A stretch of DNA of 38,212 bases from Fulvivirga sp. (GTDB lineage Bacteria > Bacteroidota > Bacteroidia > Cytophagales > Cyclobacteriaceae). Positions 206-21,060 of the stretch are shown here, one piece after another. Under the pieces are notes generated by a model that saw nothing but the letters and a program-made list of their open reading frames with translations, searched no databases and had not been told where the DNA came from. The translations under genes and the position numbers were made by a program. The DNA lies in assembly GCA_028280565.1 (NCBI GenBank), contig JANQLQ010000254.1, positions 1 through 38,212 of the forward strand. The letters are read 5' to 3'. Positions within the stretch are counted from its first letter, which is position 1. Each line of letters opens with the position of its first letter.

Positions 206-933
206 TGGTCAAGTACATTTTAAGAACGAGACTGGAAAAAGTAGCTAACCGTCCAATTACACTTAATTTAACACTGTGCATGATCCGGGTTAAAGATGGC
301 GTTTGAACGTGTCAAAACCAAGGCTGGCCGTGTTAGTGTAGTGGCTATAAAGCGATCTCTCAATTGTGACACGCCACACGGATTCCGTCCTCGCTTTTCG
401 AAAAAGGGATCGCCTGCCTTCGGCGAGGCGTCTACGTGAAAGTAAGCTTCACGCCTAGCTAGAGCCAACCCACGAAGTTCGCGATAACGATAAATATATA
501 GTTTGGGTCATAATCCTAACGCAAACCTTCCTCAACCAAAAGTCTCCTCAATTTCTAACACTTTCATCCCTAAACTTACAATGCACAAAATCCAAGGCAC
601 AAAACATAAAGTGGGCATCATAAGCTTGCCGCTTAGTAGGAGTTACAAATCAATAATTCACGACCCAAGTGCTTCGTTTAATGACCTTTACATCTTTTAC
701 GCACTTACAATCCATCCGGAACAGGCCAAGAAATAACCTTGGGCTGTTCACCAAGCATACGTGCTAACAGCCCTCTCCCCTGCATAATCTTATGGGAATA
801 GTCATTCCACAGCAACAGAAAACATACATCGGGAAAAGCAGCAGCTAGCCTAACGGTTGTAGAAGGTTTGTCGATATTCTCTTAAGTTCACTCATGTGGA
901 GGTTGGCCTTTGTGTATCGTTTCTTAGAACGTG
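206..933. other. Gene-poor stretch upstream of the regulator gene
   Basis: No convincing gene is seen. Short open frames here (for example 268-468 minus and 503-736 plus) lack recognisable domains and look like chance. A small GC-rich hairpin, CGCCTGCC-TTC-GGCGAGGCG, lies at 411-430. The promoter of the hybrid regulator should be in the last 150 bases, but I could not pick a clear TTTG/TAnnTTTG pair. Confidence 0.6.
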
Positions 934-3900
934 ATGTATCATTGGGCTTCTTTTTCACAGTTTGGCACATCTTTTTTAGCAATACTTTTATCTTTCCCTT
1001 TAAACGGGCAAGGTCATAAAAATCTAAAGTTCCGAAACATTACCCGGGTGGACGGCCTTTCGAGCAGTAACGTTACCTGCATCGTGCAAGATCACAAAGG
1101 ATTTACCTGGATAGGCACCACCGAGGGCCTGAATCGTTATGATGGTTACCAAGTGCAAACTTTCGGGCACGACGCCACCGATAGCACCTCCCTGGCCGGG
1201 AATAATATCACGGCGCTATTCGTGGACCATGTAGGTGTGCTATGGATAGGCACGGAAAACGGTGGGTTGAGCAGGTACAATGAATACACCGAAAGCTTTC
1301 ATAACTACCGTTTCGATATTTATGATCCGCTGACCATAAATTTCAACTACATTTCCTCGATCACGGAAGACAAGAAGAAAGATCTCTGGATCGGTACCCT
1401 TATGGGCCTTAATAAATACAACCGGGATACGGATACATTTGAAAGGTACCTTTATCGTAGGGTGTTGAAAGTAGGCCAGCAGACGCTGGAAGCTATGGAT
1501 AGTTTGGGCTTCTCCCAAAAGGCCATTGAAGCAACCCGGAAACTGGTAGATACAAGCTATGTAGATGAGCTTTGGTTTAAGGATTACCTATCGGCTTGGT
1601 TAGAAAGAAAGCCCGGGCACATCTTCGAACAGGTCGTTCAACGAACCAAGCTGGGTAATTTTGGAGAGGCAATACGCGTAATGTACCCGGATGATCATGG
1701 CAATTTGTGGCTCGGTTTTGAACATTCCGGTGTGGGGTACTATCAACCGGGCTGTGGTTTGATCAAAAAAGTAAATGCTTCCAGTCATGGATTAAGTTCT
1801 AACGAGATCACCACCCTGTTTCCCGATGATAGTACCTTGTGGATAGGTACACGGTCCGGGGGGTTGTATAGGCTCGACCTGGCCAGTGAAAAGCTCGAAC
1901 AATACCCTATTCCATGGGCTAGTTCCTTTATTAAATGTATTTTGAAGGATCGCAGCGATAGGTTGTGGATAGGCAATGACGAAGGATTAGGACTTTATAA
2001 CCCCTGGGACAAGACCTTTAGCCGGTATTCCGTAGGCACTAACTCAAATTCCACCCTACCCTCGAATACCATTACCACGTTATACGAAGATGATCAAGGA
2101 GGTCTATGGATAGGCTCTTTCCAAGGAGGGGTAAGTTTCTACCTTGATCCCAAGCCCTTTCGCCATTACAAGAACTTTCCGGGCATTCCTTCCAGCTTAT
2201 CCGCAAATAGTGTCTCATCCATTTTGGTGGATAATAAAGAACATCTTTGGATCGGGTATTATACCTCGGGCGTGGATCATTGGGTGGATGGCGACAAAAG
2301 GCATTTTCCAGCCGCACCCGGTACACCCGGTGGATTGGGAGAAGGTACGGTATTCAGCATTCACCAAGACCGGGAGGGAACGATATGGCTCGGCACTTAC
2401 CGAGGTGGACTCCAAAAGTACCGGGCACAAGAAGATGTATTTATTTCGTACCGAAACGATCCCAACGATCCTTACTCCATTAGCGGTAATGATGTACGAT
2501 CCATTGATGAAGATAGTGAGGGTAACCTCTGGTTAGCCATACACGGTGGTGGGGTAAATAAGTTTAACAAGAAAACAGGCCGGTGTGAAAGATACAATAC
2601 CGTATACCCCGACCTGCAACATACCTTGGTCAGCGATTGGGTGAATTCGATCCTCGTGGACAGTCAAGAACGGGTTTGGGCGGCTACTGTTTCTGGTTTA
2701 AGTTTACTGCTCCCTGGCGCAAAAGATTTTGTTTCCTTTACGCGCGAAAAAAACGGCCTAAGTCATAACAACGTAAAAACCCTCTTCGAAGATGATCACA
2801 ACCGGTTGTGGATAGGTACTGATGACGGTCTCAACTTGTTTATCGACTCGTTACAAACTTTCCTGGTCTTCAGGAAGCAACATGGGCTGCCTAGCAATAC
2901 CATAAAGAGTATCGAGCAAGATGAAGACGGCTTGCTATGGATCAGTACCAACCATGGACTGTCGCGGTTTGATTACGAGGCCAAAGTATTTAAGAACTAT
3001 TCGGAAGAAGATGGGCTTCAATCGGATGAATATTTCACCGGGGCCAGCAATAGGGACAACCAAGGAAAATTGTATTTCGGGGGTAAAAATGGCCTGAATA
3101 TTTTCCGCCCTAGTTTAATGCAGACTAACACCTTTAAACCACCAATATACCTGTCCGGGCTTAAGCTCTTTAACCAAAAGGTTTCACCCGGAGATCCGCC
3201 CGGGATACTGCATACACCGCTGGTCCATGCGAAGGAATTGCATTTTAAACATGACCAGAACTTTTTTTCTTTATCATTTACAGCGCTCGATTACACCAAC
3301 CCCGGTAAAAGCCAATACAGTTATAAATTGGAAGGTTTTAATAACGACTGGAACCATACCGGCACACAGAAAGAAGCTACATTTACCAATGTGCCCCCCG
3401 GCCGTTATGTGTTCAAGGTAAAAGCCGCCAATAATGATGGCCTTTGGAGCGAAGATTTTAATGCCCTGGCCTTATATGTACACCCTCCCTTATGGCAAAC
3501 CGTTTGGGCGTATATCTTCTATGTTATATTGCTGCTGGCAGTGGTGCTAGGGGTAAGAAAGATGGTGCTGCACCGGATCTATTTAAAGCACAAGATCCAG
3601 CTGGACGAAATGAAAATAAAGTTCTTCGAAAACATCTCGCACGAGTTCCGGACCCCGTTAACCTTGATCGTAGAACCTTTAAATCAACTGATCTCTAGTG
3701 AAAAAGACGAAAACCAAAAGGATTTTACCCTATTACCGCTCATCCAGAGAAATGCCAAACGCCTGCTGCGCCTGGCCAATCAACTGATGGAGCTCTACAA
3801 GCTGGATGCCGGGTTTGCAAAACTTATGATATCTGAAGAGCCCTTAGAAACCCTCGTTAAAAATGTGTTTTATAGCTTTACCCATGGAGCCAAGCAAAAA

Positions 3901-5226
3901 CAACTACACTATCGTTTATACTCCACCTTACCCTTAGACCAGGCCGGGCACGTCGATAGGGACAAGTTTGAAAATATCTTATACAACCTTATCTCCAATG
4001 CCATTAAATTCACGCCTGAACGCGGTGCGGTGATGGTATTTGCGAGTATTTCATCGCCAAATAAAGACTATAGTCTAAAGAAAAAAATAAAGACCCCGAA
4101 CAGCAAGGAGGCCAAATATTTAAAAATCAGTGTAGTGGACAGCGGTTTCGGCATCTCCCGGGATATCCAAAACAAAATATTCAAAAGGTTTTACCAGGCA
4201 AGTCACCACGAGGGACTCGAGCCGGGCACAGGCATAGGCCTTTCATTGGTTTCCCAGCTTACCGAGATCCACAAAGGGGTCATCCAGGTAGAAAGTGAAT
4301 TAGATAATGGAAGCCGGTTTACATTTTGGATCCCGGTAGAAAAACAGGCCTACCACGAAGATGAATTGGCCACAGGCCTTGCCAACCAGCAATACGTAGC
4401 ACACCCGGAAGATTATGAAGAAAATTTTACAGATCCTTTGGAGCCAAGCCCGAAGGAAACCAGTAAGCCCATCTTGCTGATCATTGACGACAACGAAGAT
4501 ATCCGTGAATACCTGCGACACAACCTCGCAAGTAATTTCAATATACAAGAAGCATCTAACGGACCGGGAGGAATATCCCTCGCGGAAAACTCCATACCCG
4601 ATATTGTACTTACCGACATTATGATGCCGGGGATGAATGGAATACAAGTTTGCAAGACCTTAAAAAATGACCAACGCACCTCGCACATCCCCGTCATTCT
4701 ACTTACCGCTAAAACTGATGAAGTAAGTCACCTTGAAGGCCTTGGCATGGGCGCTGATGATTACATCACCAAACCGTTTAACATAGATATCCTAAAAGCC
4801 AAGCTAAAAAACATCATCAAACACCAGCAAGTATTAAGGAGAAAAAACATGGAGATCCTTCCCCAGTCGAAGAACTTTACGGGAAGCCGCCCAGACCAGC
4901 TGTTTTTGAACAACGTTTTCGAAATCATTGAAAAAAATCTGTCAAACCCAAGCTTTGGACCCGACGTATTGGCCAAAGAAGTAGGGATGAGCAGGTCCGT
5001 ACTCTACCGGAAAGTGACCGGCCTCACCGGCAGGTCTGTAAGCATCCTGGTCAGGACCTACCGGCTCAACCGCGCCGCGCAAATGCTTAGCGATGAGCAC
5101 CTGCCCATTAAAGAGTTAGCTTTTAAAGTAGGCTTCAATGACCCGGCCTACTTCACAACCTGCTTCAAAAAGCTATTTAACGTCTCCCCAAAAGACTACA
5201 GCATCCAAATGAAGGAGGGAATTTAA
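934..5226 (+). CDS. Hybrid two-component system regulator (HTCS): sensor kinase, receiver and AraC output in one protein
   Basis: One-protein polysaccharide-sensing regulator of the Bacteroidota type, 1,430 residues from ATG 934 (an adjacent GTG at 931 is also possible). After a signal peptide ending near NGQG come about 14 Reg_prop blades (LWIGT..GL.RY, residues about 50-730), which would form two periplasmic seven-bladed propellers. A Y_Y_Y domain (about 785-850) and one membrane span (about 852-876) follow. The cytoplasmic part has HisKA with phospho-acceptor His903 (HEFRTPL), HATPase with an N box and GTGIGLSL, a receiver with Asp1228 (VLTDIMMPG), and an AraC-type HTH at the C terminus. 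All catalytic residues are present. About 75 helix-like residues are inserted between blades 3 and 4 (about 173-249), which is unusual. HTCS proteins normally bind an oligosaccharide and switch on an adjacent utilisation locus; here the neighbours are the cellulase genes, so a cello-oligosaccharide signal is an inference. No SusC/SusD pair is present. Confidence 0.95.
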   Translation: MYHWASFSQFGTSFLAILLSFPLNGQGHKNLKFRNITRVDGLSSSNVTCIVQDHKGFTWIGTTEGLNRYDGYQVQTFGHDATDSTSLAGNNITALFVDHVGVLWIGTENGGLSRYNEYTESFHNYRFDIYDPLTINFNYISSITEDKKKDLWIGTLMGLNKYNRDTDTFERYLYRRVLKVGQQTLEAMDSLGFSQKAIEATRKLVDTSYVDELWFKDYLSAWLERKPGHIFEQVVQRTKLGNFGEAIRVMYPDDHGNLWLGFEHSGVGYYQPGCGLIKKVNASSHGLSSNEITTLFPDDSTLWIGTRSGGLYRLDLASEKLEQYPIPWASSFIKCILKDRSDRLWIGNDEGLGLYNPWDKTFSRYSVGTNSNSTLPSNTITTLYEDDQGGLWIGSFQGGVSFYLDPKPFRHYKNFPGIPSSLSANSVSSILVDNKEHLWIGYYTSGVDHWVDGDKRHFPAAPGTPGGLGEGTVFSIHQDREGTIWLGTYRGGLQKYRAQEDVFISYRNDPNDPYSISGNDVRSIDEDSEGNLWLAIHGGGVNKFNKKTGRCERYNTVYPDLQHTLVSDWVNSILVDSQERVWAATVSGLSLLLPGAKDFVSFTREKNGLSHNNVKTLFEDDHNRLWIGTDDGLNLFIDSLQTFLVFRKQHGLPSNTIKSIEQDEDGLLWISTNHGLSRFDYEAKVFKNYSEEDGLQSDEYFTGASNRDNQGKLYFGGKNGLNIFRPSLMQTNTFKPPIYLSGLKLFNQKVSPGDPPGILHTPLVHAKELHFKHDQNFFSLSFTALDYTNPGKSQYSYKLEGFNNDWNHTGTQKEATFTNVPPGRYVFKVKAANNDGLWSEDFNALALYVHPPLWQTVWAYIFYVILLLAVVLGVRKMVLHRIYLKHKIQLDEMKIKFFENISHEFRTPLTLIVEPLNQLISSEKDENQKDFTLLPLIQRNAKRLLRLANQLMELYKLDAGFAKLMISEEPLETLVKNVFYSFTHGAKQKQLHYRLYSTLPLDQAGHVDRDKFENILYNLISNAIKFTPERGAVMVFASISSPNKDYSLKKKIKTPNSKEAKYLKISVVDSGFGISRDIQNKIFKRFYQASHHEGLEPGTGIGLSLVSQLTEIHKGVIQVESELDNGSRFTFWIPVEKQAYHEDELATGLANQQYVAHPEDYEENFTDPLEPSPKETSKPILLIIDDNEDIREYLRHNLASNFNIQEASNGPGGISLAENSIPDIVLTDIMMPGMNGIQVCKTLKNDQRTSHIPVILLTAKTDEVSHLEGLGMGADDYITKPFNIDILKAKLKNIIKHQQVLRRKNMEILPQSKNFTGSRPDQLFLNNVFEIIEKNLSNPSFGPDVLAKEVGMSRSVLYRKVTGLTGRSVSILVRTYRLNRAAQMLSDEHLPIKELAFKVGFNDPAYFTTCFKKLFNVSPKDYSIQMKEGI

Positions 5227-6840: not shown

Positions 6841-7377
6841 TGAAAACCAATCGAGCAAACAGTCCTACACCCATTTGGCGCAGGTTCTCTGAACCTGGTG
6901 CCACACAATCGGCAGGTTCTCCGAACCTGCGAAAATGAACATCCATTTCCTCCTTTAAGACTTGCAGATAGGCATCCATAAATAAATTCCATCGCAGGTT
7001 GCAGCTCAGCAGGTTCAGAGAACCTGCATATACATAGGCACGGGTTTGGAAAACCCGCGCCAGTGGGTGACGCCAGTGGGGGAAGACCTGCATCAGCAGC
7101 GCAGCCTGGTAATATTTGGGGAACAAATATCTACCCTACACCCACTACCAACCCTCAAAAACTAACCTAAACACACATTAGGACAATATTCATAGTGATT
7201 GAGATTTTAACACAAGCCACTCCATAGGCAAAAAACTAACTTGACAACACATTTACAACGCGGGGATCTCCTTGAGTCCATCCTTACAAAATTAAGCGTA
7301 AGGTGCACCGTATTTGTCAAGGATGGAAAATCAACGAATGCCTCGATTGTAAAGATCATCAACAAAACAAACACGTT
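6841..7377. other. Repeat-rich gap upstream of the GH9 gene
   Basis: This gap holds the GCAGGTTC hairpin cluster (annotated separately) and then about 250 bases (7120-7377) that must contain the promoter and 5' leader of the GH9 gene. I see no clear TAnnTTTG box; GTATTTG at about 7310-7316 is a weak partial match. No gene is seen on either strand. Confidence 0.55.
6881..7057. repeat. Cluster of GCAGGTTC-type palindromes
   Basis: Several short perfect or near-perfect hairpins are packed together: CAGGTTCTCTGAACCTG (6881-6897), GCAGGTTCTCCGAACCTGC (6912-6930), GCAGGTTCAGAGAACCTGC (7009-7027) and CGGGTTTGGAAAACCCG (7041-7057). They share the arm GCAGGTTC with a 3-base loop and resemble REP-type palindromes dispersed in intergenic DNA. 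They lie between the DUF3667 stop and the GH9 start. Confidence 0.85.
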
Positions 7378-10300
7378 ATGCAGAACATCAAAAGATCATT
7401 AGTTTCGTTGTTTTTGTGCTTTAGTTGTGCATTGTGTTATTCACAATCCTATAACTATGCAGAGGTTTTACAAAAGTCTATTTGGTTTTATGAAGTACAG
7501 CAGTCTGGCCCGTTAACCCCATGGAACAGGGTAAGCTGGCGGGGCGATGCTTTTGTTAATGACGGGGCCGATATCGGCATTGATCTTAACGGCGGTTGGT
7601 TTGATGCCGGGGATCATGTAAAATTCGGTTTTCCTATGGCCTTTACCACCACGGCGCTGGCGTGGGGTGCTATCGAATACCGTGAGGCGTACGAACAGTC
7701 CGGGCAATTGGACGAGTTTTCCAATAACCTGAGATTTGTCACGGATTATTTCCTTAAAGCCTTTATCAACGATACCCCCGGGCAGTATGAATTTGTCGGG
7801 CAGATCGGCGACGGAGGGAACGACCACGCGTTCTGGGGGCCTGCGGAGGTAGCAAACCTGGCAGTAACACGGCCCACGGCTATCATCTCTACAAGCTGCC
7901 CCGGGTCGGATATTGTGGGGGAAACCGCTGCAGCGCTTGCCGCTTCTTCCATATTCTTTCGTGAAAGCGGGGATATCGCCTATGCAGATCTCTTGGTAGA
8001 AAAAGCGATAAAACTCTACGATTTTGCGGATAACTACCGGGGGAAATACAGTGATTGTATTACCGGGGTAGCCAGCTTTTACAATTCCTGGAGCGGCTTC
8101 CAAGATGAAATCGTGTGGGGAGCCATATGGTTATACAAAGCCACTGGCGATCCTGCCTACCTTCAAAAAGCAGAAAGTGAATATGATAACCTGGCGACGG
8201 AGCCGCAAAGCCCGGAAAGATCGTATCGATGGACCCTCGCATGGGATGACAAATCGTACGGGTGCTACGTTTTAATGGCCCAAGCCACGGGCAAGGCAAA
8301 ATACACCACTGATGCGGAAAGGTGGCTAGATTACTGGACGGTAGGTTTTAACAACCAAAGTGTCTCCTACAGTCCCGGCGGGCAAGCCCATCTAGACCAG
8401 TGGGGCTCCCTCCGCTATGCAGCCAATACCTCGTTCGCAGCATTCGTATATAGCGACTGGCTCGCACAAACTGGTGGCAGCCAAACGCTCATCGACCGGT
8501 ACCATGATTTCGCAGTACGCCAGATCAATTATGCCTTGGGAGATAACCCCAGGAATAGTAGCTACGTGGTAGGCTTTGGCAATAATCCCCCATTGAGCCC
8601 TCACCATAGGACCGCTCACGGGGGATGGCAGAACAATGTCACCGGTCTGCCGGAAATCAACCGGCATACACTCTTTGGTGCCTTAGTTGGAGGTCCACTT
8701 TCCGCTAACGACCAATACGTGGACGAACGCGGTGATTTCATCATGAACGAAGTAGCCTGTGACTACAATGCCGCTTTCCAAAGTTCGGTGGCAAGGATGT
8801 ACCTCGAATTTGGGGGCACCCCGTTAAGTAACTTCCCTGTACCCGAGGTGCCGGAAGAAGGTGAAGAGTATTTTAACCTGGTGAAGGTAAATGCCGAAGG
8901 ATCTACATTCACCGAGGTTTCCGTAAGAGCGACAAACCATTCCGCATTCCCGGCTATGGTCACTGACAATATCTCTTACCGGTACTTTGTAGACCTTTCT
9001 GAAGGTTTTGCAGCAGGCTACACCTTAGCGGACTACCGCGTAACCTCGAATTCGGGGGGCACTGCTTCCCCGCTCATCCCGCTGGATGAAGAGAATAACC
9101 TCTATTATGTAGAAGTACGGTTCAACGACGCGGTGATCTACCCGGGCGGTGACAACCGGAATTTTGTGGAATCACAGATGCGTATCGCCCTACCTAACAC
9201 AGCGCCGGCTTCGGCATGGGATCCTACGAATGATTTTTCATACCTCGAACTGATGGGGAACACACTAGTAAAAGCCCGGAATATCCCGTTCTTCAATAAC
9301 GACATCCTGCTGTTTGGCAATGAGCCGGCCGGCGGTGATGTGCCTCGCGCGGTAATTACGGCCAGTGTTACCTCGGGCGAATTTCCACTGGCAGTAGATT
9401 TTGACGGCAGCAACTCGGTAGATCCTAATGGAGACGTCCTGGCTTTCGCCTGGGACTTTGGAGATGGTAATACCGCCACCGGTGCCACCGTCTCCCATAC
9501 CTACACTACAGCGGGTGTTTACACGGCCACACTTACGGTAGACGACGGCAACGGCAACTCGAGCACCGAAAGTGTAATCATTACCGTGCTAGAGCCTAAT
9601 ATAGCACCAGAAGCATCCTTTACCGCCTCTCCGACATCGGGAGACGTTCCACTGACGGTAAGCTTTGACGCCTCTGCCTCAAGCGACGCAAACAATGATC
9701 CATTAACCTTTGCCTGGGATTTTGGCGACGGAACTTCTGCCAGCGGGGTAGCCCCTTCGCATACGTTTAGCTTGGCAGGTACCTTTTTAGTAACCCTAAC
9801 CGTTAACGACGGCAGGGGAGGCACAGGTATTGATACGCTAAGCATTACGGTAAACGCCGTTCCAAACGATCCTCCCATCGCCGTAGTGTCAGTATCCGAT
9901 ACCCTGGGAGAAACGCCTTTCGTAGTGAGCTTCGACGGATCAGCCTCTACCGACCCGGATAACGATATACTTACCTACACATGGGATTTTGGCGATGGTG
10001 CTACCAGCACAGGAGTGACTACCACTCATACCTACACCGTAGCCGGGAGCTATGAAGCTGTATTGACCGTAATGGACGGAAAGGGTGGAATTGACAGCGC
10101 TTCCGTAGCCATCACGGTAGAACAGGGGGATTGCAGCCTGCTCACCGTATTTGGTGTGCCCACGGCCGGCGGGTTGCCTACGATCGAAAATACATCTTTC
10201 GATTACGTACATGTATTGGGCGTTAATGGACCGGACCTGTCTAACATCGCTAATTTTGTGATCAACTGGGCAAACGAACCCTGGGGGTCAGGGCTCTGGC

Positions 10301-10824
10301 AAATGTCAGCCCAAACGAATGATGGCGTCCCTAACTGGTGGAACGACCTAAGGACGGTAAGCAGCAATACCTTTGCTTCTGCCGAGCCCACACTCACCTT
10401 TTCAGGGTCAGGTTTTCCAGGACTTGACGGCACCTACTACGTGAATGTAGACGGTAATAACTTTGTGATCGTCGCTACCACTGGTGAGCATGCTATTTAC
10501 TTCAGCAACTCTGCCACACCGCCAGTGGGTTGTGGTATTGCCAACGCCAGGCTCGCCGCAAAAGTTGAAAGCCAGTTTGGCGCTGTAGTGATGAGCAACC
10601 GCGTTTATCCCAACCCATCCGATACAGAATTTTCACTGAATACCACTCATTTGACGGGTGAGATCACGGTCATCAATGCTTGGGGACAAGAGGTCAGGCG
10701 TTTTAATGCGGCTGAGGTCAAGAATGACGAGTTGAAATTCGGAAGAGGTCTCGAAAGTGGTATCTACTACATTACGATACGTGAAGACAATAAATTAAAA
10801 GCACTCAAACTCATCAAGCAATAA
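7378..10824 (+). CDS. GH9 processive-type endoglucanase with CBM3c, three PKD domains, shared C-terminal module and T9SS tail
   Basis: Secreted cellulase of 1,148 residues. I chose ATG 7378 because it gives a clean signal peptide (ending near CYSQS); an upstream in-frame GTG at 7303 would add 25 residues without signal character. The GH9 catalytic domain (about 25-480) has GGWFDAGDHVKFGFP with catalytic-base Asps 76/79, SPHHRTAHG (His409, Arg411) and NEVACDYNA with the acid Glu458. A CBM3c domain follows (about 498-650; FTEVSVRATN, SYRYFVDLSE, YYVEVRFN, YPGGDN, NDFSYLEL), the arrangement of processive endoglucanases such as Thermobifida Cel9A. Then come PKD domains at about 657-740, 741-828 and 830-917, a Cys919-Cys1052 module shared with the next two genes, and a type A sorting tail (about 1074-1148) for surface delivery by T9SS. 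It should cut cellulose to mainly cellotetraose/cellobiose at the cell surface. Confidence 0.95.
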   Translation: MQNIKRSLVSLFLCFSCALCYSQSYNYAEVLQKSIWFYEVQQSGPLTPWNRVSWRGDAFVNDGADIGIDLNGGWFDAGDHVKFGFPMAFTTTALAWGAIEYREAYEQSGQLDEFSNNLRFVTDYFLKAFINDTPGQYEFVGQIGDGGNDHAFWGPAEVANLAVTRPTAIISTSCPGSDIVGETAAALAASSIFFRESGDIAYADLLVEKAIKLYDFADNYRGKYSDCITGVASFYNSWSGFQDEIVWGAIWLYKATGDPAYLQKAESEYDNLATEPQSPERSYRWTLAWDDKSYGCYVLMAQATGKAKYTTDAERWLDYWTVGFNNQSVSYSPGGQAHLDQWGSLRYAANTSFAAFVYSDWLAQTGGSQTLIDRYHDFAVRQINYALGDNPRNSSYVVGFGNNPPLSPHHRTAHGGWQNNVTGLPEINRHTLFGALVGGPLSANDQYVDERGDFIMNEVACDYNAAFQSSVARMYLEFGGTPLSNFPVPEVPEEGEEYFNLVKVNAEGSTFTEVSVRATNHSAFPAMVTDNISYRYFVDLSEGFAAGYTLADYRVTSNSGGTASPLIPLDEENNLYYVEVRFNDAVIYPGGDNRNFVESQMRIALPNTAPASAWDPTNDFSYLELMGNTLVKARNIPFFNNDILLFGNEPAGGDVPRAVITASVTSGEFPLAVDFDGSNSVDPNGDVLAFAWDFGDGNTATGATVSHTYTTAGVYTATLTVDDGNGNSSTESVIITVLEPNIAPEASFTASPTSGDVPLTVSFDASASSDANNDPLTFAWDFGDGTSASGVAPSHTFSLAGTFLVTLTVNDGRGGTGIDTLSITVNAVPNDPPIAVVSVSDTLGETPFVVSFDGSASTDPDNDILTYTWDFGDGATSTGVTTTHTYTVAGSYEAVLTVMDGKGGIDSASVAITVEQGDCSLLTVFGVPTAGGLPTIENTSFDYVHVLGVNGPDLSNIANFVINWANEPWGSGLWQMSAQTNDGVPNWWNDLRTVSSNTFASAEPTLTFSGSGFPGLDGTYYVNVDGNNFVIVATTGEHAIYFSNSATPPVGCGIANARLAAKVESQFGAVVMSNRVYPNPSDTEFSLNTTHLTGEITVINAWGQEVRRFNAAEVKNDELKFGRGLESGIYYITIREDNKLKALKLIKQ
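10132..10533 (+). other. Shared Cys-bracketed module, copy in the GH9 protein
   Basis: 134 residues (Cys919-Cys1052 of the GH9 protein). It shares with the GH48 and cytochrome proteins the motifs VLGxxGPDLSN, a Trp-rich stretch (NWANEPWGSGLWQ), WWND, [14 protein letters not shown] and [13 protein letters not shown]. I do not recognise the family. It always sits between the last PKD domain and the sorting tail. Aromatic richness suggests glycan binding, which is an inference. Confidence 0.85.
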
Positions 10825-10898: not shown

Positions 10899-13800
10899 AT
10901 GAAACCAATAACCCAGGACAAAACTGTCCATAGGTTGGCTTTAGTTGGCGCTTTTTTCTTTTTGATCCATGGGCTGTATGGCCAGGGCACATCACCTACA
11001 CCGGGTTATCTCGACCGGTTCTTAGAGATACGGGAGGAATTTTATGACCCTGCTAACGGGTATTTTAGCGCCGACGGCGCACCTTACCACTCGGTAGAGA
11101 CCCTGATTGTAGAAGCTCCTGACCAAGGGCACGAATCTACGAGTGAATTATACTCCTATTGGGTATGGCTGGAAGCGATGTACGGTAAATTAACGGGCGA
11201 CTGGCAGCCACTCAATAACGTTTGGGCTACCATGGAAGAGCATATCATACCTTCCTCTGAAGATCAGCCCAACACGGCGGATTACAACCCAAACGACCCG
11301 GCGGATTATATACCAGAGTTCCTGTTGCCGGAGGGCTACCCGGCACCGATCAGCTTTAGCATACCTGTGGGGCAAGACCCGGTATCTCCTGACCTGTTCT
11401 CTACCTATGGCACACACGAGATCTATGGTATGCACTGGCTGTTAGACTGTGATAATTTTTACGGCTACGGCAAAAGAGGTGACGGGGTGAGCACACCGTC
11501 GTACATAAACACCTTCCAACGGGGCGAACAAGAGTCTACCTGGGAAACTGTACCGCATCCTTCCTGGGAAGATTTTTCCTTTGGAAGCGATAACGGTTTC
11601 CTTCCACTCTTTATTGACGATCCAAATGGATACGCACGGCAATGGCGGTATACTAATGCACCTGATGCCGATGCAAGGGCCGTACAAGCGATGTATTGGG
11701 CCTACTTATGGACCAAAGAACAGGGGCTAGATCCCAAAACTACCATTCCCATTGACAAAGCGGTAAAAATGGGAGACTACTTACGATTAGCAATGTTTGA
11801 CAAGTACTTCAAGCCTTTGGGGACCCAAAACCCACAGGCACCCGGGGGCCAAGGTTATGAAAGCGCTCACTACCTCATGTCATGGTATTATTCCTGGGGC
11901 GGTAAAGTACCTGTAGAAGGTGAAAACTTCGGATGGTCCTGGAGAATTGGCTCAAGCGCATGCCATTTTGGATATCAAAACCCGGTAGCGGCCTGGGTGC
12001 TTAGCAATGTGGATGACTTTAAACCCGCCTCTGCCAATGGCGTAAGAGACTGGGGCCTGAGTTTTGACAGGCAAATGGAATTCTACGAGTACCTGCAATC
12101 GCCACAAGGGCCTATTGCCGGTGGCGCCACAAACAGTTGGAACGGTGATTACAGTCCACACCCTGCCGGTCGGTCTACGTTTTACGGCATGGCCTTCGAC
12201 GAAAACCCGGTATACGAAGACCCGGGAAGTAATACATGGCCTGGCTTCCAAGGCTGGTCGGTAGAACGATTGGCAGAGCTGTATTATTTGAATAACGACA
12301 CACGGGCAAAAGTCATCCTAGATAAATGGGTACCCTGGCTACTTGGAGAGATCCAACTCATCGATTCGGACGATTTCATGATCCCGGCCCGGTTTGAATG
12401 GAACGGTCAGCCGGATACGTGGACAGGTTCGCCTACCGCTAACAGCGGGTTACGTGTGGAAGTAGTCGAATATGGTCGCGATTTAGGGGTGGCCGCTTCT
12501 TTTGCCCGGACGCTCACCTATTATGCCGCTGCCACCGAAAAGCATGATGTGTTAAACCTAGAAGCCCGGGACATGGCAAAAGAGATCCTAGACCGGATGT
12601 GGACCTCTTACCGTGACGACAAGGGTCTCTCCTCTCCCGAACCCCGGGCAGATTACCGGCGTTTCTTTGAGCAGGAAGTATTCATACCCGGAGGGTTTAG
12701 CGGCACCATGGCCAATGGCGACGTGATCCAACCGGGCGTCAATTTTCTTGACATCAGGAGCCAATACCGTAACGATCCTATGTTCCCTGCATTAGAAGCG
12801 GCCTACCAGGGAGGACAGGATTTCGTGGTAAACTACCACAGGAGCTGGGCACAGATCGAGATCGCCCTAGCCAACGCCGAGTTTGGCATTTTCTTCGGCG
12901 ACAGTGGGATCAATAAAAGACCTACGGTAGCCATCACCTCGCCACAAGATGGGGAAAAGTTTGACCAAGAACCCGTAGACATCACGATCACCGCCGATGC
13001 TTCCGACGAGGACGGTACCGTGTTAAGTGTGGAATTCTTCCAAAATGGCACTTCATTGGGCATAGATACCCTAGCTCCCTATGAGGCCATTTTTGAAAAT
13101 GTAACCAATGGCACGTACAACCTTTCTGCCAGAGCCACGGATGACCTTGGCGGTTCTGCCACGGACGAAATTACGATAACCGTAGGCAATTCCGTTCCGC
13201 TGCTAGCCTTCACGGCCGACCCGGTGAGCGGTTCTGCCCCGCTAGTGGTCACTTTCGATGCTTCCGCTACCACGGATGCTGACGGAGATACCCTCACTTT
13301 TCATTGGACCTTTGGTGATGGATCCGTAGCCACAGGCCCTGTCGTACAAAACACGTATGACACGACAGGTACATTTACGGCTACGATCACCGTTACCGAC
13401 GGCAACGGGGGTATAGCTACGGACTCGATCTCAATCGAAGTATTTGACCTAGAGTGTGACTTGGCCACGGTATATGAAGTACCCAGGGCAACCTCTTTAC
13501 CTTCGATCAACAATGTTTCTTTTGATTTTGTATACGTGTTGGGAACCGGCGGACCGGATCTATCGAATGTCACCAACTTCACAATCAATTGGGCGAATGA
13601 GTCCTGGGGTACAGGGCTATGGCAAATGTCGATCCAAACGAACAACGGGGTTCCTAGCTGGTGGAACGATATGAGACAGGTATCTTCGAATACCTTTGCC
13701 CAGTCATCCCCTACCCTCACATTTACAGGGTCAGGCTTCCCGGGATTGGATGGGATGTACTACATCAATTTGGACAATGATAATGTAGTGCTGGTAGCTG

Positions 13801-14144
13801 CAACAGGAGAATACGCCATTTACTTCAGCAATTCTGCAACACCGCCAACCGGTTGTAAACCGGCCAATGCGCGGTTGGGTGATAAGCAAGATGTCCCGGG
13901 ACTTGCTGGGGTAAGGGTTCATCCCAACCCATCCAACGGCAGCTTTTTCATGTTCATTGAGGACGTAGAAAATGTGGATGAAATAGCGGTCTACAATGCT
14001 GTAGGCGTTAGGGTAAGGGAGGTAGAGATACCTTCACCGGGGGACCAACTGGTCCAGTTCGGCAACGAGTTGATGCCGGGCATGTACTATTTGACGATCC
14101 ATAAGCAGGGTAAAGTGACACCCCATAAGCTTATCAAAAACTAG
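10899..14144 (+). CDS. GH48 reducing-end cellobiohydrolase with Ig, PKD, shared C-terminal module and T9SS tail
   Basis: 1,081 residues. Signal peptide about 1-29. The GH48 catalytic domain spans about 30-670 and shows [11 protein letters not shown], in which Glu83 matches the general acid (Glu55 of Clostridium CelF), then [18 protein letters not shown] and [19 protein letters not shown]. Asp258 lies 175 residues after Glu83, the same distance as Asp230 from Glu55 in CelF, so it is the candidate base. C-terminal to it are an Ig-like domain (about 675-765, [12 protein letters not shown]), one PKD domain (about 766-850), the Cys853-Cys986 module shared with the neighbours, and a type A sorting tail (about 1003-1081). 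It has no recognisable CBM2 or CBM3. GH48 enzymes release cellobiose processively and act together with GH9 endoglucanases. GH48 is well known in Clostridia and Actinobacteria and, to my knowledge, is rare in Bacteroidota. The gap to the GH9 gene is 74 bases, so co-transcription is likely. Confidence 0.93.
13455..13856 (+). other. Shared Cys-bracketed module, copy in the GH48 protein
   Basis: 134 residues (Cys853-Cys986 of the GH48 protein). It is very close to the GH9 copy: [64 protein letters not shown]. The DNA is also clearly related, consistent with duplication or recombination between neighbouring genes. Confidence 0.85.
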
Positions 14145-14204
14145 GTGCTTTTATAAGGCATAGGTAGGAGACAATCGTCTCAATATCCTGTAAAAAGTGA
14201 AAGA

Positions 14205-14376: not shown

Positions 14377-17300
14377 ATGAATCCAAGTAAAATATTTTCA
14401 AGAGCACGGCAAATGTTCGGTAACTCCCTTGTGGTCTACCTATCCGTAACATTTGCCATTATGGCCTTGCTGGGATGGACCTTTCGGCAAGTGCTGTTAA
14501 TGGATGGAACACAAGGGCCACCGCTTATCCAGCAGACATGGCCTGCCGGTACTTTCCTGGCTAATTTCCCGGAAGGGGACCGGATCAACACCTATCACCG
14601 CAATTACCTGATGATCGCCGGGCAGGAAGGCACCGGTATTTGGGACATCTCTAACCCCACTAATCCTGAACGACTACGGTTTAACGGCGCCGGCAACAAT
14701 GGGCACCGGTGGTGGAAAATAGGCGACCTATACTGGAGAGAATACTCGGTACCCGAAGTGGACGGCACCCAATGGCGTTACCTGGACCTTTCCGATATGT
14801 TCGACCTTAAGCCGGTCACGTCATCGGGGGTCCTGTTTACCGTAGAAAACGGCAACCCAAGGTACGATAAGCTGGAAACCTTCCCCCACACCATAGAATC
14901 AGGCAAGGTATACGACATGCGGTCTGGTGAAACCTTGGGAGACCTGCCGGTGGTGGTTAACCGGCCAGACATCGTGCTGCGGTTGGGAAATTATGTCTTC
15001 TACGTTCCCCAAACCGGGGAGATCACCGTGTATGACCTTGGGGACCCTATGAATGTAAAATACCTGGGCTCATTCGGAGGCGATGTACCTAAGGAGCAAT
15101 ACAGCACCGGCATACAACTCTGGCGCAATTACCTTATCTACATGAGTGGTAACGCGGGCGATAATAGTCTTGTCGCCTTTGACATCAGTGATCCTGCCAA
15201 TGTCACGCACGCATTCAACATTTCTTCAGACGATATCACGCTTGGGCGTTACATGATCTTCCAGGATGAATTCGGCTTTACCGGCCGCTTCGACCGGGGG
15301 GTAAAATACAACTTTGAGAAAATGGAAGTAGCACAGGAATTCTTTCCCCCCGCCGATGATGAAGTATTACAATTTTTAGATAATCAATGGATGCCGATCG
15401 GGAACATTGTAGTGGCTAGCGGGGACGGTAAAACATCGATCTTCTCTCACCAAGATGAATTGGACACACGCCCTCCTTCGGTTGGTTTCCATTTCCCCCG
15501 CCCCGGTGAAACTAACCTACCCGTCACCACCACGATAGGCTTCGTGATCAGTGAGGTCATTGACGATCTCACATTGAACGATACTAACATCCAAGTAAGC
15601 CCACTTGGTGGCGAACCCATAGAAGCAGATGTAAGCTCATCCTCCTACCAAGTGACCAATTATGCCCCTAAGGAACCATTGTTACCCAATACTACCTACG
15701 AAGTGAAGTTTATAGAAGGTGGTATTAAAGATGCCGTGGGCAATGGAATGGAAGAATATGTATTTTATTTTACTACCGGTGGTGATGAGAGTAACCAATC
15801 CCCGGTAGTGGCGGGCATCACCGCAGACATAGCTTCACCGGTGCTGACAGGCACATCGATCACTTTCACGGCCGATGCTTCGGATCCTGACGGCAATCCC
15901 TTAAGCTACCGCTGGGATTTTGGTGATGGTTCTCCAAAAACTGCGTGGACCGAAGCGACGGTAAGCCATACGTACCAGCAGGACGGCAATTACCTGGTAC
16001 AAGTACAAGTGTCCGACGACAATGGTGGATTTACCGTCGGCTCTACACCTGTAAACGCCGTAGAGGTAATGCCTAGCCACCCCCCTGCACAATCAGGTCC
16101 CATGGCTGTAGATGAGATCAACCGGGTGGTTTGGGTGGTGAACCCGGATAACAACACGGTATCCCGGCTCGATGCCGATGACCTTACCTTATTGGAAGAG
16201 ATCCCGGTGCCTGGTGATCCCGTAGGGGTAGCGCTGGACGCACAAAAAAGAGCATGGATCACCTGCCGTGACGCTGACCGTCTCGTGGTACTTACCCCCG
16301 GCGGAGCCGTAGGCCACAGCCTTCAGCTCGATCACGGATCCGCACCTTATGGGATCGTATTTACCCCGGATGGAAGCAGGGGATTCGTTTCTGCTTTCGG
16401 GGCGGGAAAGGTGTTGGAAGTGTCAGCCATCTCCATCAAAGTTGTATCCTCGCTGGAGGTGGGAAGTACACCACGAGCGATGGCGATAACGCCTGGTGGA
16501 AACTCGCTTTTAGTGACCCAATTTATTTCCCAAGATGAAGGAGGCAAAGTATGGAAAATAGATCTCGGCGCATTCACCATAGAGAAGGTTATTTCACTCC
16601 CCTTGGACGACTTCACTGCTGACAATGGCAACCAAGCTCGCGGGGTACCCAATTACGTCGCAGGGGTGGCCGTCCACCCTTACAACCAGTCCGCCTGGAC
16701 GGTAGCTAAAAAGGACAACATACTTCGAGGATATGCCCGGGATGGTCAGGCACTTACCTTTGACAATGCCGTGCGTACAGCCCTCTCCCGGCTGGATCTA
16801 GCCACCGGCAACGAGGTACTGGCTGAGCGGATGGATATCGACAACCACGGGCAGCCCTCATCGGCCATCTTCAGCCCTACCGGCAATTACCTTTTCGTTA
16901 CGATGCAAGGTAACAATCACCTGGTAGCCATCGATCCCAAAAAAGGGCTAGAGCTTTTCCAGCGGGACGTAGGGAGAGCGCCGCAAGGCCTGGTCATAGA
17001 CCCGGTTACCCATAGGATCTTTGTCAAAAACTTTATGGACAGGACGGTTACGGTTTTCGACGGGGAAGAAATGCTCACGTCCGGGGCGGCGGTTTTAAAC
17101 GAGCTTAGTACCATCAGAACGGTACAGCAGGAAAAGCTAAGTGCCGAGGTGCTCAAAGGAAAAAGGATATTCTATAACGCTGCCGACCAAAGGATGGGAG
17201 CAGACGGCTATATGAGTTGTGCCGGGTGTCACATAGACGGGACACAGGACGGGCGCACCTGGGATTTTACGAACCGGGGAGAAGGATTAAGAAATACAAT

Positions 17301-20300
17301 ATCATTGCGGGGCAGGGCTGGCACCGGGCATGGCAGGGTACATTGGAGCGCTAATTTCGACGAGATCCATGATTTTGAGAACGACATGCGTTTTCATTTT
17401 AATGGGCAAGGTTTTATGGCAGATGCAAATTTCAATGAAGGAACTACCGCACTCAGCTTGGGCGACAAAAAAGCCGGTAAATCACCGGACCTCGACGCCT
17501 TGGTAGCCTACGTGGAATCGCTCGATAGTTTTGACCCCAGCCCTTACAGGAATAACGATGGAACACTCACCGCCGAGGCTATTGCCGGCAAGGATATCTT
17601 TACCAACCTGCAATGCAACACTTGCCACGGGGGAGATAACTTCACCGACAGCTACTTAGGCAGGCGCCACGATGTAGGCACGTTAAAAGCGACCAGTGGC
17701 AACAGGCTCGGTAAAACACTGGTGGGATTAGATGTACCCACTTTAAGAGATGTATGGGCTACCGCTCCCTACTTGCACGATGGTTCCGCAGCCACATTGA
17801 AAGACGTGCTCACCACCCAAAATCCTGGTGACGCCCATAGTGCTGCTTCAGCGTTAAGCGCTTACGAGATGGACCAGTTGGTGGCTTATTTGAAACAATT
17901 AGATGGCTCAGAACGGGGTATACCTAATGACCGGTTACTGCACATGGCTTCTCCCACTGATGGGGTAAACATCACCACTTCCGATCCCGTGGACCTTCAA
18001 ATAAACAGCAATATCGAAGGGATCACGAAAGTAGTGTACTATGCTGACGATGAGGAAATTGCAACATCCGATACGGCACCGTTCAGCGGCCAGTGGCAAC
18101 CCATAATTTGGAAAGAGTACCACCTTTTTGCTAAAGTCTTTTACAACCAAGGCAAGACAGCCTCCATCACCCCCGAAATTAAGGTGAAGTACAAAAAGAC
18201 CATGGATGTAATGTTCGTGGTGGGAGATAAAGACCTTACCTCGGAAGACCTTAGGGTAAAAAGCAGGCTCGAACAGACCTTAGGATTCAACATCCATATT
18301 TTTGCTGATGAAGAAGCTGATAGCCCCGAAAAAGCTAATCCTTTCGACATGGTGTTGGTTTCATCGTCGGTCGAACCTTCCGTATTGGGAAATGACCTAG
18401 AAAGTGCCATCGTACCCGTGATGACTTGGGATCCTTTTATGTATGGCAGGTTAGCCCTCACCTCGGGGCCGCTCAACACAGGTTTCGGTTTCACCCCACA
18501 GGCTTATGAAGAGGTTACCCTGGCAGATACTAGTCACCCTATGGCGGCCGGGTTACGGGCTCCCGGGGTAAAACTATATCAAATCGTACAAAAGATGCCT
18601 TTCGGGCAGCCTGCTGAAGATGCCATCGTCATTTTAAAGGCGGGAGGGTATCCCATTCTTTTCGGGTACGAAAGCGGGGGTTCTGCAAATTCCAGGAGAG
18701 TGGCCTTCCCTTTACGAGACCAGTTCCTTCACCTTCTTTCCGAAGAAGGGTGGAAACTCTTCGATGCCGCGGTGCTATGGACCTTGCATGGGGGCAATGC
18801 CGAAACTCCTGTACAACAACTCCCCGACGTACGTTTCGTCTCACCGGCAGATGGTGAATTGGTAAACTCACCCCTGGACATCCGTTTTGAAACGGAAAAT
18901 TGGGACCTGCCCTCCTCGGAATACAAACTTAGGTTCAGGATCAACGGCCAAGACCGGGGCCTCGTAAGCAGTGATGCCCCTTTTACGGATGGCACCACCC
19001 TGTCAGAGGGGCCTCATACCCTCACATTCCAGATGGAGAGAAGCAATAACTTCCCTATGAGCCGGGGCGATACGATCACGGTCATAGTGACGAATGATCC
19101 CTTGCCCGAAGGACCATCAGTGATCATCCAGTCCCCGTTCGACGGCAGCTTACTGTCTCCTTCATTCGATATCGAGTTTTCGACGTATAAATGGGACATC
19201 GCTCCGGGCGGTAAGCATATCAAGTATTTTATCGATGGCGTGGAAGCAGGAGCTGTTTTTGAGATCGCTCCTATAAAGATCACCGACCTACCGGAGGGTC
19301 AGCACACCCTTACTTTAGCGCTGGCAGAAGAAGACGGGCAATTGACAGGATCAGAAGAATCTGTCACCGTAACGGTTAGCGAGGCAGTCGCTGGATTACC
19401 TGATACTCCTTTCATGCTGAAGTACTATGATAACTCAACAGGCCCTTTGGATCCGGAAGTTAAACCTGTCTTCAGCATTGTCAACGATTCTTCGGCTTCC
19501 ATTCCCTACAGTGACTTTAAGATCCGCTATTGGTATACCCCGGAACATAGCGGTCCCCTCCGGTTTAATGCGGATTATTCCAGTATACCCGGCGCTACAG
19601 GCTTAGCCGCGGTTACCGCCGAGGGGGAGCACTACATGGAAATATCTTTTACTACCTTAGCCGGCTTACCGGCAAATAGTGCCTCCGGCCCGGTCCAACT
19701 CCGGCTACATCATACGGCCTATCAAACCCAGAACCAAAGCAATGATTTTTCATACGATGGAGCTAAGAAGTCCTTAAGCCCGCACATTAAGGCCACGCTC
19801 TACTATAAAGACGAGCGGGTATGGGGGTTAGAGCCGGGGCCTTTGGGACCGGTCAATCAAAAGCCAGGGATTGTATTAGTCACCTCCGCTTTAAAAGGGA
19901 ACGTCCCGCTGGAGGTCACTTTCGACGCATCTCAATCTTTTGATCCCGATGGCACCATAGCATCGTACCTATGGGATTTCGGGGATGGCACCACGGCAAA
20001 TACCTCCTTGGTTACCCATACGTACACTACAGGAGGGGTATTTGACGTAAAGCTGACCCTAACGGACGACCTGGGAGCAATTTCGATAGAAACCTTAGCA
20101 GTAGTGGCCAACGATCCTACAGTAAATCATGACCCGGTGGCCGGGCTGCAAGTGTCTTCCACGAGCGGTAGTGTACCGCTAAAAGTAACGCTCGACGCAT
20201 CAGCGTCTACCGACCAAGATGGTGACGAACTTGCCTTTTCATGGGATTTTGGTAACGGGCAAACCGGCAGTGGTGAGGTAATAGAACACACGTATAACGT

Positions 20301-21060
20301 AGCAGGCGAGTACAACATTGTATTAACTGTAACCGATGGCAACGGGGGAATGGACCAAGCGGAGGTGAAGATAGTAGCCAGTGAAGTCATCATAGGAGGC
20401 TGTAATTTTGACACGCCCATTCCAACAGCCTTACCGTCCATTGACAATAATAGCTACGAGCATGTGCATGTATTAGGCTCCGGGGGGCCGGATCTTAGCA
20501 ATGTGACGAATGTGACCGTCAACTGGAACCTGCAAGGTAATGGGCTTCACCAGTTTTCCATTTCTACCAGTAATGGTGATCCTAGCTGGTGGAACGATCT
20601 CATCCCTGCGATAGATCAAACATTCCGTGAGCCTTCCCCGGGAATGACCATTGCGGGCTCCGGGTTCAGCGGCTTAGATGGAGAATACCATGTAAACAAG
20701 GTAGGCGATGATTTTGTAATGGTATCAAAAGCCTATGGTTTTAGCCTATACTTTAGCAACTCCCCAAGTGCCCCGGGCTGCGCGCCCGCTTCCGCGAGGG
20801 TGAGTAGTGGATCAAAGGAGCTTTCACCTAATGGGAATATGCTCATCTATCCTACCATGGCAAAGAGCAGGCTGTGGGTAAAGAGCAACGATAAGCTGAG
20901 TGATATGCAATGGCAAATCCATGATTCTGCCGGCAGGCTACATGCCAATGGCACCGGGATAAAAGGGTCAATCGATATTTCCGGTATACATACGGGGCTT
21001 TACTTTTTGAGGATCACAAATAACGGGAAGGAAACTGTCTTTAGATTTTTCAAACAATAA
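14377..21060 (+). CDS. Giant secreted di-haem cytochrome c / beta-propeller protein with CBM3, shared module and T9SS tail
   Basis: 2,227 residues. The domain order as read is: N-terminal hydrophobic signal or anchor (about 18-37); propeller with LVIVD-like repeats (about 45-350); Ig-like Big_5 (366-470); PKD (474-563); YVTN/NHL-like propeller (569-900); di-haem peroxidase/MauG-like domain (about 915-1180) with CAGCH at 948-952, CNTCH at 1080-1084 and the family stretch PTLRDVWATAPYLHDGS; Ig-like domain (1180-1273); ThuA-like, amidotransferase-fold domain (1275-1475); two Ig-like domains (about 1480-1670); CBM3 (about 1679-1820); two PKD domains (about 1830-1912, 1915-2005); Cys2009-Cys2135 module shared with the GH9 and GH48 proteins; type A sorting tail (about 2150-2227). 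Haem would be attached in the periplasm before T9SS export. The likely role is redox chemistry at the cellulose surface, either as electron donor, sugar dehydrogenase partner or peroxidase; which one cannot be told. The CBM3 and location link it to cellulose. Confidence 0.88.
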   Translation: MNPSKIFSRARQMFGNSLVVYLSVTFAIMALLGWTFRQVLLMDGTQGPPLIQQTWPAGTFLANFPEGDRINTYHRNYLMIAGQEGTGIWDISNPTNPERLRFNGAGNNGHRWWKIGDLYWREYSVPEVDGTQWRYLDLSDMFDLKPVTSSGVLFTVENGNPRYDKLETFPHTIESGKVYDMRSGETLGDLPVVVNRPDIVLRLGNYVFYVPQTGEITVYDLGDPMNVKYLGSFGGDVPKEQYSTGIQLWRNYLIYMSGNAGDNSLVAFDISDPANVTHAFNISSDDITLGRYMIFQDEFGFTGRFDRGVKYNFEKMEVAQEFFPPADDEVLQFLDNQWMPIGNIVVASGDGKTSIFSHQDELDTRPPSVGFHFPRPGETNLPVTTTIGFVISEVIDDLTLNDTNIQVSPLGGEPIEADVSSSSYQVTNYAPKEPLLPNTTYEVKFIEGGIKDAVGNGMEEYVFYFTTGGDESNQSPVVAGITADIASPVLTGTSITFTADASDPDGNPLSYRWDFGDGSPKTAWTEATVSHTYQQDGNYLVQVQVSDDNGGFTVGSTPVNAVEVMPSHPPAQSGPMAVDEINRVVWVVNPDNNTVSRLDADDLTLLEEIPVPGDPVGVALDAQKRAWITCRDADRLVVLTPGGAVGHSLQLDHGSAPYGIVFTPDGSRGFVSAFGAGKVLEVSAISIKVVSSLEVGSTPRAMAITPGGNSLLVTQFISQDEGGKVWKIDLGAFTIEKVISLPLDDFTADNGNQARGVPNYVAGVAVHPYNQSAWTVAKKDNILRGYARDGQALTFDNAVRTALSRLDLATGNEVLAERMDIDNHGQPSSAIFSPTGNYLFVTMQGNNHLVAIDPKKGLELFQRDVGRAPQGLVIDPVTHRIFVKNFMDRTVTVFDGEEMLTSGAAVLNELSTIRTVQQEKLSAEVLKGKRIFYNAADQRMGADGYMSCAGCHIDGTQDGRTWDFTNRGEGLRNTISLRGRAGTGHGRVHWSANFDEIHDFENDMRFHFNGQGFMADANFNEGTTALSLGDKKAGKSPDLDALVAYVESLDSFDPSPYRNNDGTLTAEAIAGKDIFTNLQCNTCHGGDNFTDSYLGRRHDVGTLKATSGNRLGKTLVGLDVPTLRDVWATAPYLHDGSAATLKDVLTTQNPGDAHSAASALSAYEMDQLVAYLKQLDGSERGIPNDRLLHMASPTDGVNITTSDPVDLQINSNIEGITKVVYYADDEEIATSDTAPFSGQWQPIIWKEYHLFAKVFYNQGKTASITPEIKVKYKKTMDVMFVVGDKDLTSEDLRVKSRLEQTLGFNIHIFADEEADSPEKANPFDMVLVSSSVEPSVLGNDLESAIVPVMTWDPFMYGRLALTSGPLNTGFGFTPQAYEEVTLADTSHPMAAGLRAPGVKLYQIVQKMPFGQPAEDAIVILKAGGYPILFGYESGGSANSRRVAFPLRDQFLHLLSEEGWKLFDAAVLWTLHGGNAETPVQQLPDVRFVSPADGELVNSPLDIRFETENWDLPSSEYKLRFRINGQDRGLVSSDAPFTDGTTLSEGPHTLTFQMERSNNFPMSRGDTITVIVTNDPLPEGPSVIIQSPFDGSLLSPSFDIEFSTYKWDIAPGGKHIKYFIDGVEAGAVFEIAPIKITDLPEGQHTLTLALAEEDGQLTGSEESVTVTVSEAVAGLPDTPFMLKYYDNSTGPLDPEVKPVFSIVNDSSASIPYSDFKIRYWYTPEHSGPLRFNADYSSIPGATGLAAVTAEGEHYMEISFTTLAGLPANSASGPVQLRLHHTAYQTQNQSNDFSYDGAKKSLSPHIKATLYYKDERVWGLEPGPLGPVNQKPGIVLVTSALKGNVPLEVTFDASQSFDPDGTIASYLWDFGDGTTANTSLVTHTYTTGGVFDVKLTLTDDLGAISIETLAVVANDPTVNHDPVAGLQVSSTSGSVPLKVTLDASASTDQDGDELAFSWDFGNGQTGSGEVIEHTYNVAGEYNIVLTVTDGNGGMDQAEVKIVASEVIIGGCNFDTPIPTALPSIDNNSYEHVHVLGSGGPDLSNVTNVTVNWNLQGNGLHQFSISTSNGDPSWWNDLIPAIDQTFREPSPGMTIAGSGFSGLDGEYHVNKVGDDFVMVSKAYGFSLYFSNSPSAPGCAPASARVSSGSKELSPNGNMLIYPTMAKSRLWVKSNDKLSDMQWQIHDSAGRLHANGTGIKGSIDISGIHTGLYFLRITNNGKETVFRFFKQ
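19411..19836 (+). other. CBM3 cellulose-binding module inside the cytochrome protein
   Basis: Residues about 1679-1820. The CBM3 hallmarks are MLKYYDNS, PVFSIVNDSS, FKIRYWYT, YMEISFTTLAG, QSNDFSYDGAKKS and LYYKDERVWGLEP. By visual alignment with CipA CBM3a, the flat cellulose-binding strip keeps an Asp (Asp1733) and an Arg (Arg1776). The His and Trp positions are Tyr (Tyr1734, Tyr1782). This is the only CBM3 of apparent binding type in the locus, because the one on GH9 is of the catalytic-helper 3c type. Confidence 0.88.
20401..20805 (+). other. Shared Cys-bracketed module, copy in the cytochrome protein
   Basis: 127 residues from Cys2009 to Cys2135, the most divergent of the three copies and about 7 residues shorter. 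It keeps [45 protein letters not shown] and LYFSNSPSAPGC. The region equivalent to the two Trp residues near NWANE is shortened (NWNLQGNGLHQ). Confidence 0.82.

Follow-up and report, generated by a model that had tools for sequence, protein, structure and literature searches.

A giant di-haem protein with cellulose-binding modules in a cellulase locus of Fulvivirga sp.

The giant protein and its di-haem core

The window analysed here, the whole stretch of 38,212 nucleotides from contig JANQLQ010000254.1 of Fulvivirga sp. (GenBank assembly GCA_028280565.1), carries genes for GH9 and GH48 glycoside hydrolases followed by the gene of a giant multidomain di-haem protein (14377..21060, plus strand, as are all features of the protein given below). 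Its 2,227 residues combine an LVIVD-type propeller, a propeller like the beta subunit of hydrazine synthase (HZS), a core of HZS-gamma/MauG-like type, the carbohydrate-binding modules (CBMs) CBM3 and CBM113, and a sorting tail of the type IX secretion system (T9SS), each of them computed directly. The frame is uninterrupted and holds two CxxCH motifs in all, as an initial annotation of the sequence had described. That annotation had also raised a frameshift or assembly join as a possible source of the fusion, an origin now ruled out by other genomes that carry an equal architecture.

The di-haem domain (residues 915-1183; 17119..17925) is of the HZS-gamma/MauG/CcpA type and is 54-73% identical to the domains of 29 relatives. 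Both haem sites, CAGCH (948-952; 17218..17232) and CNTCH (1080-1084; 17614..17628), recur as CxxCH in 120 of 120 related proteins, and so does Trp990 (17344..17346), which aligns with the inter-haem Trp of CcpA and MauG. By HHalign comparison with the cytochrome c peroxidases (CCPs) of the same genome, this residue also matched the Trp in the FWDGR motif of L124, and it is presumed from alignment to lie between the two haems; its meaning in HZS-beta-gamma-like and CCP-type proteins is taken from the available text of PMC12758564 (the papers cited below by PMC number are likewise used as far as their available text goes). His1154 (17836..17838; 119/120) aligns with a His of HZS gamma and is presumed to supply haem 2 with its second axial ligand, and haem gamma-II of HZS is itself described as bis-His (PMC12607021). 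The only cysteines in the domain are the four of the CxxCH motifs, in 30 of 30 aligned domains.

In profile searches for the MauG-like domain of the initial annotation, PF03150 fell on either side of its cut-off of 25.6 bits, with 33.0 on the isolated domain and 24.8 on the whole protein; the CBM3 of that annotation stands. The NCBIfam cut-offs were missed for MauG (44.8 against 443.85 bits) and MbnH (67.7 against 362.85), as was that of CytoC_perox, and the curated HZS models gave 86 against 625 bits for gamma and 70 against 1250 for the beta-gamma fusion. A true hydrazine synthase was rejected on these scores and on the lack of the third cysteine of HZS. PF01578 assembly matches occur in the genome, and haem loading of the protein is predicted.

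At the N-terminus, a hydrophobic stretch read off the sequence (residues 17-35; 14425..14481) is the presumed Sec signal. It is followed by the LVIVD propeller (residues ~40-360; 14494..15456; PF08309 28.5 bits, cut-off 20.2; predicted beta-rich), by Big_5 (363-467) and PKD (487-551) linkers (15463..16029), and by the second propeller, of HZS-beta/YncE type (574-901; 16096..17079). Beyond the di-haem domain lie Big_7 (1189-1242; 17941..18102), a ThuA-like/flavodoxin-like domain assigned from fold evidence only (1274-1471; 18196..18789), two probable immunoglobulin-like (Ig) linkers suggested by the secondary structure of the model (~1480-1672; 18814..19392), CBM3 (1677-1821; 19405..19839; Pfam score and fold), two PKD domains (1827-2004; 19855..20388), CBM113 (also UKD; 2009-2134; 20401..20778; homologous to 9KVN) and a T9SS type A sorting domain (2157-2227; 20845..21057; TIGR04183 34.3 bits, cut-off 23), on which a second T9SS model, PF18962, gave 26.0 bits against a cut-off of 27. 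The propellers, di-haem domain, ThuA-like domain, CBM3 and sorting tail proposed earlier thus each find profile or fold support. In Foldseek used by itself, long propeller and Ig proteins crowded out other matches, and the fold matches of the first structural model were filled by the second propeller, leaving the first propeller and the di-haem fold barely probed.

The CBM113 module had been missed in the initial annotation. In the Aquimarina enzyme CelAly it binds insoluble cellulose and alginate (PMC13235733). By hand count on the alignment, the cellulose-contacting Tyr50, Tyr63 and Tyr64 correspond to His, Trp and Trp in the giant protein, and the alginate-contacting Arg36, Lys100 and Lys110 to Thr, Lys and Lys; in CBM3, where binding to crystalline cellulose is predicted, Tyr1782 takes the place of a Trp in the alignment with 3zqx. 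CBM113 was matched in the neighbouring GH9 and GH48 proteins as well. Together, CBM3 and CBM113 would hold the protein on cellulose, or on the cellulose and alginate of algal walls.

Relatives, partners and gene neighbourhood

Relatives were searched with residues 560-1190 as query; 7,993 candidates were scored, 3,180 passed, and the 120 best were listed by likeness to the query, so that the module counts describe this list and not the family: CBM3 in 48 (query included), CBM2 in 10, CBM6 in 11 and PF09118 in 24, by precomputed Pfam. The CBM3 forms named come from Aquimarina, Tenacibaculum, Flavivirga, Reichenbachiella, Flammeovirga and a Pseudarcicella metagenome, and the relatives are mostly annotated in public genomes as "PKD domain-containing protein". 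Gene surroundings were compared in 79 loci, drawn from the best 80 of 561 relatives and including many from Aquimarina.

With queries for GH5, GH6, GH8, GH9 and GH48, and flanks of unequal length, a cellulase-type gene was found beside 21 of the 27 loci that bear CBM3 (25) or CBM2 (2), against 1 of 49 without these modules; three loci open at the 3' end were left out of this count, among them L041, where GH9 and GH48 adjoin. GH48 lies close by in 17 of the 25 CBM3 loci. In L022, from Aquimarina, the order is GH9 and GH48 in one frame, GH5, the di-haem gene, and GH5 with CBM3. The two gammaproteobacterial CBM2 loci have GH5 and GH6 genes nearby, joined in L054 by GH48. The link with cellulase genes therefore recurs in other genera, with CBM2 replacing CBM3 in the two gammaproteobacterial loci, and the earlier view of a di-haem protein directed to cellulose by its modules within a cellulase locus is borne out. 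Separate origins of the CBM2 and CBM3 forms are suggested by a tree of 104 of the 120 proteins, from which 16 CBM3 rows had been thinned out and in which many forks stay open.

At genome level, GH48 was searched in the genomes of 36 of the 79 loci and found in 26 of them, including 23 of the 24 searchable CBM3-type genomes. Among 291 sampled genomes of the order of Fulvivirga, 11 have GH48: 4 of the 14 that carry the di-haem protein and 7 of the 277 others, three of those four belonging to one genus. Fisher values computed on the counts treat the entries as unrelated. The GH48 gene that adjoins a close relative of the cluster in the metagenome-derived L041 genome (G310:C44:27545-29428) has one in-frame TAA.

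The LVIVD propeller was found in the same frame as the core in 65 of the 79 loci and separately, upstream of it, in six; it was not found in five, and three were not assessable. It is thus fused to the core, or lies directly before it, in 71 of the 76 loci that could be assessed, in a count for which four of the five query sequences were drawn from loci inside the set. Of these six, L072 and L056 alone clearly have it as a gene of its own, and the rest may be frameshifts or overlaps; in L072 the propeller gene has its own Big_5, NPCBM and T9SS tail. This constancy makes the propeller look like a partner of the di-haem core. Its conserved His residues at 74 (54/60 rows), 110 (57/60) and 358 (54/60) suggest a putative metal site.

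Upstream in the window, all on the plus strand, lie the genes of a GH48 cellobiohydrolase-type enzyme with Big_7, PKD and a T9SS tail (10899..14144), of a GH9 cellulase with CBM3, PKDs and a T9SS tail (7303..10824), and of a hybrid two-component regulator with sensor propeller, kinase, receiver and AraC-type helix-turn-helix (931..5226). Regulators of this hybrid two-component system kind sense polysaccharides in Bacteroidota, and its position upstream of the GH9 gene suggests that it controls the cluster; among the 79 loci, its sensor has matches in L032, L049 and L071 only. Between regulator and GH9 lies a DUF3667 gene (6124-6840), without a match in the 79 loci. The genes downstream (21870-31987) look unrelated to cellulose: cysteinyl-tRNA synthetase, an amidohydrolase, a rhodanese-like protein, an M23 peptidase, HisG and histidinol dehydrogenase.

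A GSDH-type sugar dehydrogenase gene adjoins the di-haem gene in five betaproteobacterial loci (L059, L064, L066, L069 and L070), placed at about 12.4-13.7 kb; in L064 and L066, GSDH occurs with NPCBM by Pfam. This suggests a sugar-derived electron source at these five loci. The genome of Fulvivirga has four GSDH matches, none of them within the window.

Proposed function and rival explanations

We give about even odds to the giant protein being an exported, wall-anchored di-haem oxidoreductase with peroxidase- or oxidase-type catalysis at the wall. Electrons would enter at the bis-His haem 2 (His1084/His1154) and pass via Trp990 to haem 1 (His952, its other side open), which would activate H2O2 or O2 as in CcpA and MauG. 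The resulting peroxidase- or oxidase-type reaction would proceed on the surface of the fibre, alongside chain cutting by GH9 and GH48. Rather than a spacer, the LVIVD propeller would be a constant working part, on the docking or substrate side. The GSDH genes found next to some relatives make a sugar dehydrogenase one candidate for the donor. More tentatively, the CBM-anchored core with its LVIVD propeller may represent a new class of auxiliary-activity redox enzyme for cellulose, independent of lytic polysaccharide monooxygenases (LPMOs), whose oxidative targets would be the cellulose surface, the ends of cello-oligosaccharides or phenolics of the wall, and which would have been coupled to cellulase loci at least twice, in CBM3/T9SS Bacteroidota and in CBM2 Gammaproteobacteria.

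Several observations weigh against a wall oxidoreductase that works with cellulases. Six of the 27 CBM2 or CBM3 loci have no cellulase-type gene in their flanks; L032, L038, L039, L040 and L044 keep GH48 elsewhere in the genome (L040 being a short contig), and no GH48 match was obtained in the genome of L043. Two GH48 genomes of the same genus gave no di-haem protein at E <= 1e-30, so the protein appears dispensable for some GH48 users. Many loci come from Aquimarina and are not independent. The predicted structures contain no haem and do not show what faces haem 1 on its distal side. Finally, an inverted repeat between the GH48 and di-haem genes (14204-14228; an 11-pair stem with one G-T, and a 3-base loop) may be a terminator that parts the two; a terminator scan gave it a score on the minus strand alone, and the 4 terminator-like sites that it reported for the region compare with an expectation of 3.9 from shuffled sequence.

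Among the rival explanations, a maturation role of the MauG/MbnH type ranks highest, although we consider it unlikely. The di-haem domain would here form or activate a cofactor by oxidising residues of a partner, for example the LVIVD propeller of the same protein or, in relatives, the galactose-oxidase-like part. This would fit the domain's similarity to the MbnH family and MauG, the conserved Trp, the nearly constant LVIVD propeller and the presence of PF09118 in the same chain in 24 of the 120 listed relatives, which fall in two or more distinct parts of the tree. The scores nevertheless lie far under the MauG and MbnH cut-offs, no target residue was identified, and such an enzyme has no obvious need of two cellulose-binding modules. 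In P0059, P0061-P0064, P0068-P0070 and others, the core is fused to the galactose-oxidase-like (PF09118) protein, and in these fusions it is possible that it serves as a built-in activator of a copper-radical oxidase.

The initial annotation had offered electron donation to an LPMO, an idea that the genome searches weaken and that we now hold to be rather improbable for a cellulose-cleaving LPMO of auxiliary activity family 10 (AA10). The X183 domain of Cbp2D is able to start LPMO reduction (PMC12542752), and CBM113 is reported on predicted cellulose AA10s (PMC13235733); the TtX183 domains, however, gave TtAA10 no electrons (PMC10916295). AA10 was searched with the single Pfam model PF03067, which unusual LPMOs may escape, in genomes of 36 of the 79 loci, some perhaps incomplete and L042 being left out. 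It was found in 17 of the 36 and in 14 of the 24 searchable CBM3-type genomes, most of those 14 from Aquimarina, and no PF03067 match was obtained in the other 10, which include two Aquimarina with a GH48 locus (L027 and L028). In the order sample it occurs in 2 of 291 genomes and in one of the 14 di-haem carriers, leaving 13 without a match to this model. The genome of Fulvivirga does have an AA10 gene, as the earlier proposal required, but its only match (G000:C268:78747-79271) comes with two CBM5/12 matches; the tail there resembles a T9SS signal weakly (23 bits against a cut-off of 27), and neither CBM3 nor CBM113 was hit at that place. CBM5/12 is usually tied to chitin. With AA10 patchy among carriers and the own AA10 bearing CBM5/12, donation to AA10 was set aside as the leading explanation.

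Similarly improbable is a protective role, in which the protein would remove H2O2 or let electrons out, guarding cells and enzymes at the fibre and leaving the polymer untouched. The CCP-type fold would suit it, the modules would place the protein outside the cell and on a surface, and such chemistry is in use in this genome, which has five CCP_MauG matches at other places; yet smaller CCP_MauG enzymes could serve, and the CBM-bearing forms sit with cellulase genes. That the protein is mostly a structural adhesin with vestigial haems, as the bulk of propeller, Ig, PKD and CBM modules in its 2,227 residues might suggest, is very improbable given haem motifs in 120 of 120 proteins and invariant or nearly invariant core residues.

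Significance and comparison with known systems

Little is known of protein redox partners in bacterial cellulose breakdown, and according to a 2024 study, Cbp2D and Cbp2E were, to the knowledge of its authors, the sole suggested protein partners of bacterial LPMOs (PMC10916295). The locus points, as a candidate, to the oxidative side of this process. The family, present in two phyla, is a conserved candidate tied to such loci and follows AA10 LPMOs only loosely, and LPMO-independent oxidative help for cellulases therefore becomes directly testable; the widespread HZS-beta-gamma-like family would in turn gain a concrete biological setting. As for novelty, the protein had been taken as undescribed. 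Searches of the open-access literature, not all of them aimed at this question and with most subscription papers and all preprints outside their scope, found no account of an HZS/MauG-type protein that bears CBMs and is exported by the T9SS; it is not unique in public genomes, however, and HZS-beta-gamma homologs in Bacteroidota have been published (PMC12758564). The parts are known, while their combination and the cellulase linkage seem new.

CelAly of Aquimarina sp. 2-A2 is likewise a multimodular protein of a marine bacteroidote with CBM113, but it is a GH5-PL31 hydrolase/lyase, and the terms cytochrome, redox and peroxidase are absent from the main text of PMC13235733. Hydrazine synthase (5C2V), whose beta and gamma parts are fused in some anammox bacteria, has a propeller followed by a di-haem domain, as here; it is the closest solved fold for the second propeller, which was recovered as HZS-beta-like, and the closest solved sequence for the di-haem domain, in which a bis-His haem 2 is presumed as well. 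HZS differs in the third Cys to haem gamma-I, in His144 of gamma (PMC12758564), where the giant protein has Trp, and in lacking the added CBMs, LVIVD propeller and T9SS tail. The HZS-beta-gamma homologs of the same source are widespread and share the conserved Trp and two C-terminal haem motifs; cellulose-binding modules or cellulase loci are not among the features described in its available text.

The di-haem enzymes CCP, MauG and MbnH share two CxxCH motifs and the inter-haem Trp and can be aligned over 253 columns, whereas the giant protein differs in size and fusion, misses their family cut-offs and has His1154 where they use other haem ligands. Those ligands are Met or Tyr in that stretch. 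Nearest in setting are Cbp2D and Cbp2E of Cellvibrio japonicus, to which the initial annotation had likened the protein, and TERTU_2913 and TERTU_3803 of Teredinibacter. The likeness holds as an idea and not in the domains: the Cbp2D/E type is described with X158, X183 (a c-type cytochrome), X132 and others and without an HZS/MauG di-haem core (PMC10916295, PMC12542752), while scans against Pfam, NCBIfam and PDB assigned other families to the giant protein, which is set apart on the basis of their described domains. All of them are extracellular redox proteins of large size from bacteria that use cellulose aerobically, and Cbp2D, Cbp2E and TERTU_3803 bear CBMs as the giant protein does.
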